NCBI GenBank assembly: GCA_040388375.1
Contig: JAZKBU010000004.1
Span: 186,001 to 250,000 of the forward strand
Source of the DNA: Bacteroidota bacterium
Lineage (GTDB): Bacteria; Bacteroidota; Bacteroidia; UKL13-3
Direction of reading: 5' to 3'
DNA: 64,000 bases
Both the position numbers and the translations under genes were made by a program. Below the pieces are notes generated by a model. It was not told the DNA's origin, did no database searches, and saw only the letters and a program-made list of their open reading frames with translations. The first letter of the stretch is position 1. Each line of letters opens with the position of its first letter. Positions 28,834 to 37,639 of this stretch are shown in pieces.

Positions 28834-29634
28834 ATGAAAAAATTTTATACAAAAGAAAATAACAGGACAGATGTTAAAGCCAAAAAACATTTAGGACAAC
28901 ACTTTTTAAATGATGAAAACATTGCCTTTAATATCGTTGATGCCTTTACTCAATTTTGTACTACGCCTGATGTGCTTGAAGTTGGACCGGGAATGGGTGT
29001 ACTTACTAAATACCTGCTGCAACAAACCAAGTTTAAAACATGGGCTATTGAATTAGACAAAGAGTCTATTATATATTTAAAAGATAACTACCCAAACTTA
29101 GAAGACAGGTTACTGGAGGCTGATTTTTTAAAACTTCATTTTGCTAAAACGTTCCCAGGTAACTTTAGCTTAATAGGCAATTTTCCTTACAATATTTCTT
29201 CGCAAATTGTTTTTGCTTTAATTGACAATAAGGCCATTATACCACTTATGGTTGGTATGTTTCAAAAAGAAGTAGCGGAACGTTTGTCGGCTAAAACCCG
29301 TACCAAAAGTTATGGTATTTTAAGTGTGCTGACACAGGCTTATTTTAACGTAGAGTATTTGTTTACTGTTGATGAACATGTTTTTATTCCACCACCAAAA
29401 GTTAAATCAGGCGTGGTAAGATTAACCAGAAAAGAATCACAGTTAAACTGCGATGAGAAGGCTTTTAAACAAGTGGTTAAATTGGCCTTTAACCAACGCA
29501 GAAAAAAATTAAGCAATGCTATTCAATCTATGGTAAAAGATAAAGAGCAAATTGCTGATTACGCTGATAAAAGGGCTGAAGAATTAAGTGTAGATGACTT
29601 TGTGAACTTAACCAATATCTTATTTGCGAACTAG
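28834..29634 (+). CDS. rsmA: 16S rRNA dimethyladenosine transferase RsmA (KsgA)
   Basis: A 266-residue methyltransferase with KKHLGQHFLND at the N-terminus, EVGPGMGVLTKYL as the SAM-binding motif, and the catalytic NFPYNISSQIVF of KsgA/Dim1 enzymes. It dimethylates two adjacent adenines at the 3' end of 16S rRNA. The 3' end overlaps the convergent hybrid kinase gene by four bases. Confidence 0.96.
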   Translation: MKKFYTKENNRTDVKAKKHLGQHFLNDENIAFNIVDAFTQFCTTPDVLEVGPGMGVLTKYLLQQTKFKTWAIELDKESIIYLKDNYPNLEDRLLEADFLKLHFAKTFPGNFSLIGNFPYNISSQIVFALIDNKAIIPLMVGMFQKEVAERLSAKTRTKSYGILSVLTQAYFNVEYLFTVDEHVFIPPPKVKSGVVRLTRKESQLNCDEKAFKQVVKLAFNQRRKKLSNAIQSMVKDKEQIADYADKRAEELSVDDFVNLTNILFAN

Positions 29635-31937
29635 GCTATTATTTGTTTAATATAGTTTACTTCCTTTTCAATGTGCTCCATTAAATTGGAAATAATATAG
29701 TTATCAAAATTGTTTTGATACTCTAATGTAGCCGCGTGTTGAACCAGTTTAGGCAAACAACCCGATAAGGCTACTCCTTTTAATTTATGTGCCGTAGTGG
29801 TTATTTTTTCTAAATTGTTTTGTGCTAAACCATCTCTCAGGTCTTTTAGTATTTCATCAAAACTGCTTTTTATTATTTCAATAAAACTACTTACTATTTG
29901 TGTGTCGCCACCTAGGTTTTTTAATAAATCCTGTCTGTTAAAATGGGTAGTTATTGCCTCATTGCTTGGTGTGTTACTTTTTTCGCTTTTTAATGAAGAG
30001 TCGTTTACTTTAAGCCATCTTTCAATAACGGCTTCAATGTTTGCTTTTACTACGGGTTTACTAATATAGTCGTCCATTCCGGCTTGCAGGCACCTGTCTT
30101 TCTCTCCTTTAACCGTTCCGGCAGTTAAAGCAATAATAGGGATGCGTCCGGCCCTCTCTAACCCTCTGATAGCCGTTGCTGCTTCGTAGCCATTTACTTC
30201 CGGCATTTGCACATCCATTAATATTAAATGTGGTTGTTCGCGCTCAAAAATATCAATGGCTTCTTTTCCGTTTATAGCTTCGTAAATAGTAGCATTGGGT
30301 AAAACACCACCTACAATTATTTTGGCTAAAAACATATTTACCGGGTTATCATCAGCAATAAGTATTTTTAAGTTCTGGCTCTCATTGATAATATGGACAC
30401 TTTCTGTTTCCTTTACTTCTTCAACTACTAAATTATTAGCATTTAACTTAGCCAATGCATTAAACAGTTGCTGCATTTTTATTGGTTTAACCAGCCTTTG
30501 TCGTACTTCCAGCTCCTTACATGCTTCGTTTATCAATTCATCGTCTGATGAGCTGTAAAGCAGTATTATTGGTTGTTTAGTAATACCTATTTTGGCATTG
30601 GCACGAATCTGCCTGATGGTTTCAATACCATTCATTTCCGGCATATTGTAATCCATTAAAATAACATCGTAACAATTACCTGCACCTATCATTTCTACTG
30701 CTTTTATACCATCTTCGGCTAAGTCGGCATTTATCTTTTTAAGTGCCAGCATATCTTTTAATATTAAACGATTGTTGGTATTGTCATCTACTATTAACAC
30801 TTGTTTTATGTGGTCAAAATTCTGAAGGTTTGGCTCACTGCCTTCTAAAGCTTTAAAGCTTACATCAAAATAAAAGGTACTTCCTTTACCTATTTCGCTT
30901 TTCAGCAATAGCTTACTGTTCATTAAAGCCAGTAGTTTATTGGATATAGCTAAACCTAAACCTGTGCCACCATATTTACGTGTGGTTGATGCATCTTCCT
31001 GGGCAAATGCTTCGAATATTTTTTGTTTATTTTTTTCTAAAATACCAATACCGGTATCGCGTACGGAAAAACATAAAACGGTATCACCATCTGCATCTTT
31101 GGACATTACACTTACCTTTAATTCTATTTCACCTACTTCGGTAAATTTAACGGCATTGCTTAAGAGGTTTACTAAAATTTGGCGTAGCCTTACCGCATCG
31201 GCCCATACAAAACGGGGTACATTGGGTGCAATGTTTAATAAAACTTCTAATTTTTTTTGGTGTGCCTGATATGAAATAATATCAGCTACCTGATTTCCTA
31301 CCTCTAATAAATCAATCTTTTCTGACTCCAACTCTAGTTTTCCTGCATCTATTTTAGAAAAATCTAATATATCGTTTACTATATCCAATAATGAATTGGC
31401 CGATTGAAAAACGGCTGACATATATTGGTGTTGGGTACTGTCCAGCTTGGTTTTCATCAACAAATCGGTAAAACCAATAACCCCGTTTAAAGGAGTCCTT
31501 ATTTCATGGCTCATGGTTGATAAAAAATTGCTCTTGGCTTCGGCTGAGTTTTCGGCCAGCTCTTTGGCTTTAATCAAAGCCTCTTCCAATATTTTGCTTC
31601 GCTCTACCTGTTTTTCTAAAAAGCCTAAAATTAATATAATATCAACTTCATCTACTCCGTCCTTTATGTTGGTATTGCCCGAGTCGAGCGAGCGTATGAG
31701 TTGTTTAATTTTTAAAATAGATTGCTTATTGATATCATCTTGTTTTTTAAGGTCTAAAACAACTTTCTGATATTCTCTTTCACTTACTTCAAACGCATGC
31801 TCTGAAAGCTTCTTATCGCGCTCAAAAGTGTTATAATATTTGCTTACTGCATCTAAAAATGCAATAATATTTTGATCACCTAAATGCTCCGATGTTAGAA
31901 ATTTACTGATTTGTTTTTCTAAAGCTTTGTGATACAT
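29631..31937 (-). CDS. Hybrid histidine kinase: HisKA, HATPase, two receivers, HPt
   Basis: A 768-residue cytoplasmic kinase with no membrane helix. Residues 1-130 are largely helical and coiled-coil; then HisKA with SHEIRTPLNG (H144), HATPase with LRQILVNLLSNAVKF, DTGIGI and GGTGLGLAIS, receiver 1 with VDDN and VILMDYNMPEMNG, receiver 2 with IADDNPVN and LILMDVQMPEVNG, and a C-terminal HPt domain with TTAHKLKG. It has no sensory domain of its own and starts 3 bases after the stop of a FIST gene, which is likely its sensor. Phosphate would flow H to D to H as in phosphorelays; no output regulator is adjacent. Confidence 0.95.
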   Translation of the reverse strand: MYHKALEKQISKFLTSEHLGDQNIIAFLDAVSKYYNTFERDKKLSEHAFEVSEREYQKVVLDLKKQDDINKQSILKIKQLIRSLDSGNTNIKDGVDEVDIILILGFLEKQVERSKILEEALIKAKELAENSAEAKSNFLSTMSHEIRTPLNGVIGFTDLLMKTKLDSTQHQYMSAVFQSANSLLDIVNDILDFSKIDAGKLELESEKIDLLEVGNQVADIISYQAHQKKLEVLLNIAPNVPRFVWADAVRLRQILVNLLSNAVKFTEVGEIELKVSVMSKDADGDTVLCFSVRDTGIGILEKNKQKIFEAFAQEDASTTRKYGGTGLGLAISNKLLALMNSKLLLKSEIGKGSTFYFDVSFKALEGSEPNLQNFDHIKQVLIVDDNTNNRLILKDMLALKKINADLAEDGIKAVEMIGAGNCYDVILMDYNMPEMNGIETIRQIRANAKIGITKQPIILLYSSSDDELINEACKELEVRQRLVKPIKMQQLFNALAKLNANNLVVEEVKETESVHIINESQNLKILIADDNPVNMFLAKIIVGGVLPNATIYEAINGKEAIDIFEREQPHLILMDVQMPEVNGYEAATAIRGLERAGRIPIIALTAGTVKGEKDRCLQAGMDDYISKPVVKANIEAVIERWLKVNDSSLKSEKSNTPSNEAITTHFNRQDLLKNLGGDTQIVSSFIEIIKSSFDEILKDLRDGLAQNNLEKITTTAHKLKGVALSGCLPKLVQHAATLEYQNNFDNYIISNLMEHIEKEVNYIKQIIA

Positions 31938-31940
31938 AAC

Positions 31941-33083
31941 TTAATTCTCAGAAAAAGTGGTGATGGTCATGGTTTGGTTGTGCAGCTCGCATTTTGAAAA
32001 GCGGGTAAAAGGGCAAATTTCTCCGTACGAATAAAAGCCTGTAACATGGGTGTTATCGCCAAAAATACTATTGGAGGCCTCTACCTCTTCTTCTGTTCTA
32101 TCTTGTAAGACTAATTTTCTACCCACGCAGCTTATTAATAAAGCAAACTCGGGTTGTGCATCTTCAGTAGTGTTAAAGGTATTTTTAGCCGCCTCTGCCG
32201 AGCCGTCTATCAGCTTATCAAAATTTGCCTTCATTAACCTTACTTTACTTCCTTCCGGAATATTGCCGGCAAAGGTCATTGTCTTTTCGTTATTGTTAAT
32301 GCTCAAGATTGTTCTTACCAGCGTTTTTTCGCTGTCTTTTAGTTTTAACGACATGGGGAATAACAACGCGGAACCGGGAAGCTCTTTGCTATATTCGCCT
32401 AAATACTCTTTGTAAAGGTCTAAAGCATTTTTTCCATCTATTTCGTAAAGTACATTTTTATCTGATTTGGTAATGATTTTTTCGTTTCCAAATTCATTCC
32501 ATCCGCCTATTGAGCCATGCCCTATTTTTAAGGTGGTACCATAAAAACCAATGGCTATAATTTCGCCTGCTTTAGGTACTTCGTTTAAACCGGTAACTGT
32601 GCTTTGAAAATTAGCGCCATCGCCAGCCAAACCGCCCGTAATGGCTATATTGTTATGGTTCTCATTATTCAAACCTTCTACTAAGTCACTACCATTAATT
32701 ACCATCCCATCGGAAAAAACAAGTACTGACTGTAGTTCTTGTTTGGGTAAGGCTCTAAACAAAAAGGCTCCTGCTTCAAAACTATTTTCGTGTTCGCCTA
32801 TATTTGTTTTTATACATTTAACGGCATTTTTCTCAAACTGTAAGGCTGATACAACAATGGAGTTATCTAGTACTTCATTGGCCATAATTTCGCCTGCCGT
32901 TGATGATAATATGATATTTGCCTGAGGATAGTCTGATTTAAGCTTATTATATATATCAGCTTTGGCAATCAGCTCGCGTAAACCAAAAGCCAATACCAGC
33001 TGGCATTTAGTATTATTAAATTCATCATCTTTATTTATATGAGTCCATGATTCATTGATAAATTTTTGTTGCGAAATTTTCAT
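31941..33083 (-). CDS. FIST-domain sensor protein (NosP-like)
   Basis: A protein of 380 residues from the ATG at 33083 (a longer in-frame start at 33182 adds an unlikely 33 residues). FIST_N features include LVLAFGLRELI, IVVSALQFEKNAVKCIK, VLVFSDGMVINGSDLVEGLN and TGGLAGDGANF; FIST_C ends in VTGFYSYGEICPF and CELHNQTMTITTFSE, as in the family. In Pseudomonas the FIST protein NosP binds haem, senses nitric oxide and controls the histidine kinase NahK encoded beside it. This arrangement here is very similar in form; haem binding is inferred. The operon starts here and continues into the kinase. Confidence 0.88.
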   Translation of the reverse strand: MKISQQKFINESWTHINKDDEFNNTKCQLVLAFGLRELIAKADIYNKLKSDYPQANIILSSTAGEIMANEVLDNSIVVSALQFEKNAVKCIKTNIGEHENSFEAGAFLFRALPKQELQSVLVFSDGMVINGSDLVEGLNNENHNNIAITGGLAGDGANFQSTVTGLNEVPKAGEIIAIGFYGTTLKIGHGSIGGWNEFGNEKIITKSDKNVLYEIDGKNALDLYKEYLGEYSKELPGSALLFPMSLKLKDSEKTLVRTILSINNNEKTMTFAGNIPEGSKVRLMKANFDKLIDGSAEAAKNTFNTTEDAQPEFALLISCVGRKLVLQDRTEEEVEASNSIFGDNTHVTGFYSYGEICPFTRFSKCELHNQTMTITTFSEN

Positions 33084-33188: not shown

Positions 33189-34145
33189 TTATGCTTTTCG
33201 GGCAATCGCTTTTAAAGCCTTCTCTACAATTTTATCGGCAGTTAAACCATATTTTACCATTAACTCATCTGGTGTACCACTTTCGCCAAAACTATCGTTA
33301 ACGGCAACCATTTCAACCGGTAACGGTGTGTTTAATGCAAGCAACTGGCAAATGCTATCGCCTAATCCACCATTCATTTGGTGTTCTTCTGCTGTTACCA
33401 CACAACCTGTTTTTTTAACACTGGCTAATACCGCTGCGTTATCAAGTGGTTTAATGGTATGTATATTTATTATTTCTGCGTTAATTCCTTTTGCAGCCAA
33501 TATATGGCCTGCTTCTATGGCTTTCCAAACCATATGGCCTGTTGCAAAAATACTTACATCGCTTCCTTCGTTTAAAGTAATGGCTTTACCTATTTCAAAT
33601 GTTTGGTTTTCGGGTGTAAAATTAGGTACAGCCGGACGCCCGAATCTTAAATATACAGGACCCACATAATCTGCTATAGCCATGGTAGCCGCCTTGGTTT
33701 GGTTATAATCGCACGGATTAATAACAACCATATTGGGTAACATTTTCATCAAACCAATATCTTCTAAAATTTGGTGTGTGGCACCATCTTCTCCCAAGGT
33801 TAAACCTGCATGCGATGCACAAATTTTTACGTTTTTATTGGAGTAAGCAATTGACTGACGAATCTGGTCATAAACCCTGCCGGTAGAAAAATTAGCAAAG
33901 GTGCCTGTAAAAGGTATTTTACCACCAATTGTTAAGCCTGCTGCTACACCCATCATATTGGCTTCTGCAATACCTATTTGAAAAAAACGTGTTGGAAAAT
34001 CTTTTATAAAAGCATCCATTTTTAATGAGCCTATTAAATCTGCACAAAGCGCAACCACGCTTTCATTGCTTTTTCCTAACTCATGTAAACCCGCGCCAAA
34101 TCCGCTTCTGGTATCTTTTATGTTTTGAACGTCAAACGTTTTCAT
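33189..34145 (-). CDS. Transketolase, C-terminal subunit
   Basis: A 318-residue protein equal to the pyrimidine-binding and C-terminal domains of transketolase. It has [38 protein letters not shown] (with the glutamate that activates thiamine diphosphate), and [16 protein letters not shown], and a C-terminal [21 protein letters not shown]. It pairs with the N-terminal subunit to make the enzyme that moves two-carbon units in the pentose phosphate pathway. Here the N subunit gene lies 2.65 kb upstream with two unrelated genes between, whereas the halves are usually adjacent. A hairpin terminator follows directly. Confidence 0.93.
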
Positions 34146-36793: not shown

Positions 36794-37639
36794 TTAGTAA
36801 TCGCCCAATGTTTCGGGCAATTGTTGTAATGCTTTCGCTAATTCTTCATCGTTAGGCGATACACCATGCCATTTATGGCTACCCATCATATAGTCAACCG
36901 GGTATCCCATTTCTGTTTTCATCATAATAAAAATAGGCTGGCCTTTTCCGCTTAACTCCTTTGCTTGTTCCATTACTGAAATAATGCTTTCAAAATTATG
37001 GCCATCCATATGCAATACTTTCCAACCAAACGAAATCAGCTTGTCTTCAATATCGGCTCCAATACCCATTACTTTTTCGGTACTGCCGTCTATTTGTTGT
37101 CCGTTAAAATCAATGGTAACTATTAAATTATCAATTTTATGGTGTGCAGCAAACATAAAAGCTTCCCAATTCTGGCCTTCTTGTATCTCACCATCACCCA
37201 TTAAAACATAAACTAAATGCTTATCGTTATTCAGTTTTTTTGTTAATGCTGTTCCTGCTGCAACGGAAACACCTTGCCCTAATGAACCACTCGCAATACG
37301 AATACCCGGTAAATGTTCTGCAGTAGCAGGGTGACCTTGCAATCTGCTATCTATTTTACGGAAAGTGCTTAATTCACTTACTTCAAAATAACCTGAACGA
37401 GCCAAAGCACTATAAAATACGGGTGAAATATGTCCGTTCGATAAAAAGAATACATCTTCATTTATTCCATCCATGTTAAACGCAGGATTGTGTTTCATTA
37501 TGTGAAAATACATAGCTGAAAAAAAATCAGCGCATCCTAATGATCCACCCGGATGACCTGATTTTACTGCGTGTACCATACGTAAAATATCTCTACGCAT
37601 TTGACTTGAAATTGCTTGAAGTTGCTCAATTGTAGCCAT
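36794..37639 (-). CDS. Transketolase, N-terminal subunit
   Basis: A 281-residue protein with the thiamine diphosphate domain of transketolase: HPGGSLGCADFFSAMYF, GHISPVFYSALARSG, and the ThDP/metal motif GDGEIQEGQNWEAFMFAAH with DFNGQQ. It forms the active site with the C subunit encoded at 33189. Together they are of normal transketolase length (about 600 residues). The intervening lipoprotein and vWA genes are unusual for this pair. Confidence 0.93.
   Translation of the reverse strand: MATIEQLQAISSQMRRDILRMVHAVKSGHPGGSLGCADFFSAMYFHIMKHNPAFNMDGINEDVFFLSNGHISPVFYSALARSGYFEVSELSTFRKIDSRLQGHPATAEHLPGIRIASGSLGQGVSVAAGTALTKKLNNDKHLVYVLMGDGEIQEGQNWEAFMFAAHHKIDNLIVTIDFNGQQIDGSTEKVMGIGADIEDKLISFGWKVLHMDGHNFESIISVMEQAKELSGKGQPIFIMMKTEMGYPVDYMMGSHKWHGVSPNDEELAKALQQLPETLGDY

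Follow-up and report, generated by a model that had tools for sequence, protein, structure and literature searches.

A probable two-gene FIST sensor-kinase module from a widespread subfamily in a Bacteroidota genome

A FIST protein and a hybrid histidine kinase, encoded side by side in the genome of a Bacteroidota bacterium, form a FIST-kinase module that belongs to a widespread subfamily. Both genes lie on the minus strand of the window, the whole 64,000-nucleotide stretch of DNA that was analysed. The kinase begins with a helical domain (the N-domain) that recurs in the partners of related FIST proteins. A reasonably probable account of the pair is a two-gene sensor-kinase module in which the FIST protein docks on the N-domain and governs a phosphorelay, with haem or nitric oxide (NO) as the favoured signal. 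The module probably works like the NosP systems, yet it is not an orthologue of NosP/NahK.

The FIST sensor gene (31941-33083, minus strand) encodes 380 residues from an ATG at 33083, and an alternative upstream ATG lengthens its open reading frame (ORF) to 413 residues. Pfam FIST scores 146.1 bits on the protein (cut-off 23.2) and Pfam FIST_C 128 bits (cut-off 28.5), placing the N domain of FIST at residues 28-218 (32430-33002, minus strand) and the C domain at residues 220-358 (32010-32426, minus strand). This is the one FIST match in the window's genome. An AlphaFold2 model of the protein (pLDDT 95.0, pTM 0.92) resembles the FIST region of human FBXO22 (8ua3, 8s7d) with Z of 20.7-22.1 and an rmsd of 3.3-3.4 over 255-269 residues, and gives weaker matches to chorismatases and cyanuric acid hydrolases (Z 11.6-15.0). 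Neither the window FIST nor its profile retrieved a FIST homologue when the PDB was searched by sequence; comparison of folds did retrieve one. In the accessible portion of a report on the FBXO22 structure, its FIST fold is likewise likened to chorismatases and cyanuric acid hydrolases, and an obvious ligand pocket is described as absent from its FIST region, a point against the sensor account (PMC11185555). Elsewhere in the window, transketolase is encoded as two genes, the C-terminal and N-terminal halves by Pfam (33189-34145 and 36794-37639, respectively), with two genes between them, one encoding a VWA domain and the other giving no match in Pfam.

The kinase gene (29631-31937, minus strand; 768 residues) is separated from the end of the FIST ORF at 31941 by three bases, exactly as the first-pass annotation had it. 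The description of its product as a hybrid kinase with two receivers and an HPt is also confirmed by Pfam, which finds HisKA (31341-31538; residues 134-199, His144), HATPase_c (30858-31199; residues 247-360), a first receiver stretch of approximate limits (30453-30803; Asp429), a second receiver (30024-30365; residues 525-638, Asp575) and Hpt (29718-29882; residues 686-740, His717), all on the minus strand. The acceptor motifs SHEIRTP, LMDYNMP, LMDVQMP and AHKLKG are present, and the protein possesses the full set of elements expected of a hybrid phosphorelay kinase: HisKA, HATPase, receiver, Hpt and the acceptor residues. A Pfam search at an E-value of 0.001 finds no domain upstream of residue 134.

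The same annotation had described the kinase as having no input domain, and here it needs correction. Residues 2-85 (31683-31934, minus strand) match a domain that the partners of related FISTs have in common. A profile built out from residues 1-100 of this kinase scores 86.0 bits on it (i-E 1.1e-26, residues 2-85) and a second model, a 35-row alignment, scores 93 bits; both models include the window, making its own score circular, and support for the N-domain therefore comes from its recurrence in other genomes. A Pfam search with the N-domain returned noise only, and no Pfam entry was found for it. In a model of a 96-residue piece (pLDDT 91.3, pTM 0.61), the domain consists of a short helix (3-12) and a long helix (21-88).

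The N-domain recurs in company with FIST genes. An N-domain partner lies just downstream and on the same strand for 125 of 138 subfamily FIST ORFs in 144 loci, against none of the nine other FIST ORFs in those loci, a count over phylogenetically non-independent loci (L096 and L153 are the same gene, and L158 and L160 look like near-duplicates). The gap between FIST and partner is at most 10 bases in 96 of the 125 pairs. The 144 loci comprise the window, 63 stretches from genomes or plasmids, and 80 named loci; together they hold 147 FIST ORFs of at least 300 residues, 142 of which have a same-strand ORF of at least 100 residues close downstream. Subfamily membership means a score above 350 bits with the subfamily profile (138 of 147), and the 80 named loci, being the best 80 of 580 confirmed stretches and found with a subfamily profile, are members by construction. 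The window kinase, which carries the N-domain by profile and stands beside a subfamily FIST, is accordingly counted as a FIST-partner kinase. Thirteen subfamily FISTs are without an N-domain partner: one stands at a contig end (L128), two are the first FIST of a tandem whose second FIST is partnered (L139, L150), H-NOX and its kinase accompany two more (L174, L176), and the remaining eight are beside some other gene or have no neighbour. Both tandems (L139:5938-10330, L150:2250-6525) run FIST, small HPt-like ORF, second FIST, N-domain kinase; Pfam calls Hpt in the small ORF of L139 and calls none in that of L150.

The coupling is also seen on the scale of whole genomes. When the 35-row model was searched against 296 genomes of the phylum and its hits compared with 88 FIST matches, 34 of 39 N-domain matches fell within 1.5 kb of a FIST gene, or 17 of 22 once the 17 rows of the model itself are excluded; in many genomes the search scored no more than a portion of its first-look candidates (17 of 27, for example), so unlinked copies may be under-counted. 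The five FIST-distant matches are in G204 (27 kb), G191 (48 kb), G308 (about 3.4 kb from a weak FIST of 30.5 bits on the opposite strand) and, as weak matches, the window's own genome (G000, 27.1 bits) and G091 (22.2 bits). The match in the window's genome (G000:C6:81835-81954; L304:3818-4660) lies in a 280-residue kinase with no FIST beside it and has scores of 27.1 and 24.3 bits. The distant copy in G204 (L305:3998-5815) belongs to an additional N-domain kinase, which lies some 27 kb away from the one linked to FIST in that genome.

Outputs attached to the N-domain are diverse. Domains were scanned in 120 of the 125 partners, after incomplete or identical ones were dropped. Among these 120 distinct complete partners, HATPase_c occurs in 110, HisKA in 105, a receiver in 75, Hpt in 21, a SpoIIE phosphatase in six, and GGDEF plus EAL in two; the partner in L123, with PAS and GAF domains, lacks a named output. 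In L024, L026 and L027, the FIST partner is a fusion of the N-domain to a SpoIIE-type phosphatase and not a kinase (SpoIIE was read from Pfam for L024 and L026, and L027 is 59% identical to L024). With the N-domain constant and the outputs varied, a docking role is its simplest reading, and it is probably a docking site for FIST. Such a domain of about 84 residues would offer a direct contact site that is open to testing, tie FIST to outputs besides kinases, and help to separate NosP-type proteins from the wider FIST family.

A working model can be drawn from this arrangement. The soluble, likely cytosolic FIST protein would be the sensor and would dock on the helical residues 2-85 of the kinase, the long helix running towards the dimerisation helices, and docking would set kinase or phosphatase activity. 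Phosphate would pass from His144 to a receiver Asp, then to His717 of the Hpt, and finally to a response regulator whose gene lies elsewhere and which may be a sigma-54 (NtrC-type) activator of the sort seen near many relatives. The signal would most likely be haem or nitric oxide, perceived by a FIST subfamily other than that of Pseudomonas NosP. Of the 138 subfamily FISTs, 25 have a sigma-54 response regulator no more than 4.5 kb away, always on the same strand; four of these 25 supplied the regulator profile. No response regulator gene stands next to the pair in the window. Elsewhere in its genome (G000:C6:361583) is a homologue of the sigma-54 regulator with 56% identity and 541 bits, the next best scoring 278 bits; it is a guess that this protein receives the phosphate. 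Computation establishes the pairing of the genes, the N-domain with its coupling to FIST, the order of the domains and the fold, and the docking, the way control runs, the sequence of the relay and the ligand are inferred.

Sensing of nitric oxide, as proposed in the first-pass annotation, gains plausibility from H-NOX neighbours and a Legionella-type operon. An H-NOX gene is adjacent at six subfamily loci, and at five of these it shares a single same-strand run of genes with the FIST. In Lutibacter agarilyticus (L174) and a Chitinophagales MAG (L176), the order is FIST, H-NOX, HNOBA kinase, with the N-domain kinase replaced. In an uncultured bacterium of unstated phylum (L171), H-NOX, kinase, FIST and N-domain kinase stand in a row, and the same four genes are separated by gaps of a few bases or less in L310 (G138) and L311 (G157). 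The sixth locus, from a Flavobacteriaceae MAG (L164), has an H-NOX pair close to FIST on the opposite strand. H-NOX adjoins four of the best 80 of 580 loci against 0.016 expected, well beyond chance; the expectation is calculated for 4-Mb genomes, stretches of 13 kb and 9 genes among 148 genomes and takes signalling genes as unclustered, and flanks of 4 kb on either side were available for 57 of the 82 named subfamily FISTs. The phylum sample has few H-NOX genes (9 genes in 8 of 148 genomes), and two of the nine are beside a subfamily FIST. The subfamily is present in four of the eight H-NOX genomes as against 34 of 296 (0.007), a comparison between samples of 148 and 296 genomes that takes no account of kinship. 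The available part of a review already mentions that, in one group of H-NOX, FIST genes lie nearby (PMC8738867). In G180, a sigma-54 response regulator, H-NOX and an HNOBA-type kinase stand in a row with no FIST (L313:4964-11568), and this locus is the H-NOX counterpart of the FIST loci.

These neighbourhoods make NO sensing through FIST in Bacteroidota open to testing. They also invite a broader and rather unlikely proposal, in which the N-domain would be a portable FIST docking plug that drives kinases, SpoIIE phosphatases and c-di-GMP enzymes, and in which Bacteroidota would possess a two-input NO circuit (N-domain, H-NOX and sigma-54 regulator) controlling transcription, not c-di-GMP. The window's genome has no H-NOX match, and neither NirK nor NosZ exceeds its cut-off there. 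Across the phylum, genomes with and without the subfamily show no clear link to nirK (7/34 vs 40/262, p 0.45), to nosZ (16/34 vs 82/262, p 0.08) or to either gene (20/34 vs 107/262, p 0.06), and co-occurrence with denitrification was dropped as support for NO.

Two residues stand out in the FIST alignment, in which nearly all of the 129 subfamily rows were picked for having an N-domain partner. Cys319 (32127-32129, minus strand), in the motif SCVGR, is constant in all 129 subfamily rows and all 11 NosP-like rows, and an SCxGR-type motif occurs in 137 of the 138 subfamily FISTs. His368 (31980-31982, minus strand), in LHNQTMT, is present in 123 of 129 subfamily rows and 10 of 11 NosP-like rows and is the only histidine frequent in both. 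The HNQT motif containing His368 is missing from six of the 138 members, through replacement of the histidine by Q or Y (L150, L169, L178, L192) or absence of the motif (L043, L093); if His368 is the ligand, then not all members bind haem that way.

A link to a system with a reported ligand runs through Legionella. The Legionella NosP reported to bind NO (PMC11237717, as far as the accessible text goes) probably belongs to the window's FIST subfamily. One genus has a FIST in 14 of 22 genomes, 57-81% identical to the protein of a L. anisa plasmid, and 13 of these 14 FISTs have an N-domain partner; from that identity, we infer that the genus is Legionella. The FIST gene of the L. anisa plasmid has the same length as the span given for Legionella nosP in the available part of PMC11237717 (1167 bp). 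The gene order in L254 is FIST, kinase, REC-PAS-GGDEF-EAL. A Legionella anisa plasmid typed as conjugative (L083) carries a subfamily FIST without an adjacent kinase.

Could the two genes of the window be unrelated neighbours, paired by accident? Genus mates (G003, G004, G006) pair FIST with a very different kinase of 1720 residues, as an accident might, yet these kinases likewise begin with the N-domain, and the FIST/partner arrangement recurs across several phyla. With 125 of 138 subfamily pairs and 34 of 39 whole-genome matches near a FIST, chance pairing was ruled out, and an accident is scarcely credible. The opposite reading, that the pair is a straight NosP/NahK orthologue and senses NO exactly as in Pseudomonas, draws on the shared gene order and FIST domains and on Cys319 and His368, both common to NosP-like proteins. 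It also draws on the kinase of one NosP-like locus (L243), residues 12-85 of which give the best N-domain match across the 11 such loci (12.9 bits, i-E 0.0037), a weak match at the N-terminus from which remote kinship of the kinase N-termini may be suspected. Against it, the NosP model NF041558 scores 54.2 bits on the window FIST (cut-off 450) and the NahK/ErcS model NF041832 166.8 bits on the kinase (cut-off 400). None of the 296 phylum genomes exceeds the NosP cut-off, the highest score being 326.8 bits (G341); 2 of 274 genomes in the class of a gammaproteobacterial locus pass it. An unrooted, quick-search tree of 74 FIST rows, in which the NosP-like clade is a meeting point of long branches, groups the 11 NosP-like rows in a clade of their own without the window (SH-aLRT 100) and places all 38 N-domain rows in a separate 52-row clade (SH-aLRT 100), together with 14 rows for which no N-domain partner was detected. 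The NosP-like set is limited to these 11 rows (L240-L249, L124), two over the cut-off and nine at 260-413 bits; the window FIST lacks the His at 194 and 242 and the Cys at 273 (window numbering) of this set. The partner in NosP-passing L241 starts like NahK (157.5 bits) and has no N-domain match. Straight orthology was rejected on the model scores and the separate clade, and it is a very improbable reading. Of the NosP/NahK-like label in the first-pass annotation, what survives is a FIST protein encoded with a kinase that it probably controls; the Pseudomonas type, with its own clade and its own kinase start, is not supported.

The nature of the signal is the more evenly contested matter. The FIST protein may sense something other than NO or haem, perhaps a reactive electrophile that Cys319 would trap, or else a small metabolite; H-NOX would then bring the NO signal to the same regulator by its own route. 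Such a signal would suit the constancy of Cys319, the loss of His368 in some members, the lack of a clear association with nirK or nosZ, and the resemblance of the FIST fold to cyanuric acid hydrolases and chorismatases, which are enzymes of small organic molecules. The accessible text of PMC13316043 also describes a reactive cysteine, Cys326, in the FIST region of FBXO22, which may or may not be the counterpart of Cys319. This alternative is possible and somewhat doubtful, given that FIST and H-NOX share one same-strand run in L171, L174, L176, L310 and L311 and that the Legionella NosP reported to bind NO (PMC11237717, available part) is probably a member of the window's subfamily. Haem or NO is the favoured ligand of the window FIST, a tentative choice that may prove right.

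In the titles and abstract openings of the open-licence papers listed, no such module was found in this phylum, and the window pair is best placed by comparison with systems known from elsewhere. The FIST region of FBXO22 (8ua3, 8s7d) has the same fold as the window FIST, but with 14-15% identity and in a eukaryotic ubiquitin-ligase subunit. H-NOX with its HNOBA-type kinase is similar in pairing a soluble sensor with a dedicated kinase, is found next to this FIST module at several loci, and L313 has it beside the same kind of sigma-54 regulator; it differs in sensor family (HNOB) and in the N-terminal domain of the kinase (HNOBA). The Pseudomonas NosP-NahK system (NF041558, NF041831/NF041832), represented here by genomes that pass or approach the NosP model and not by the Pseudomonas protein itself, shares with the window a FIST beside a kinase, the FIST domains, Cys319 and His368; the window pair differs in its separate FIST clade, its scores far under the cut-offs and its different kinase N-terminus. 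NosP is reported to bind and control its adjacent kinase (PMC12570481, accessible portion). In the same portion, Burkholderia pseudomallei NosRPK is described as a system in which NosP binds NosK and controls its autophosphorylation, NosK having about 130 N-terminal residues from which a known sensory domain is absent (PMC12570481). The window pair is likened to NosRPK by this description, and its output is unlike the HD-GYP regulator given there for NosRPK (PMC12570481). Legionella NosP-NahK-NarR probably has a FIST of the same subfamily with an N-domain kinase, whereas the window kinase is an Hpt phosphorelay hybrid with no adjacent c-di-GMP enzyme.
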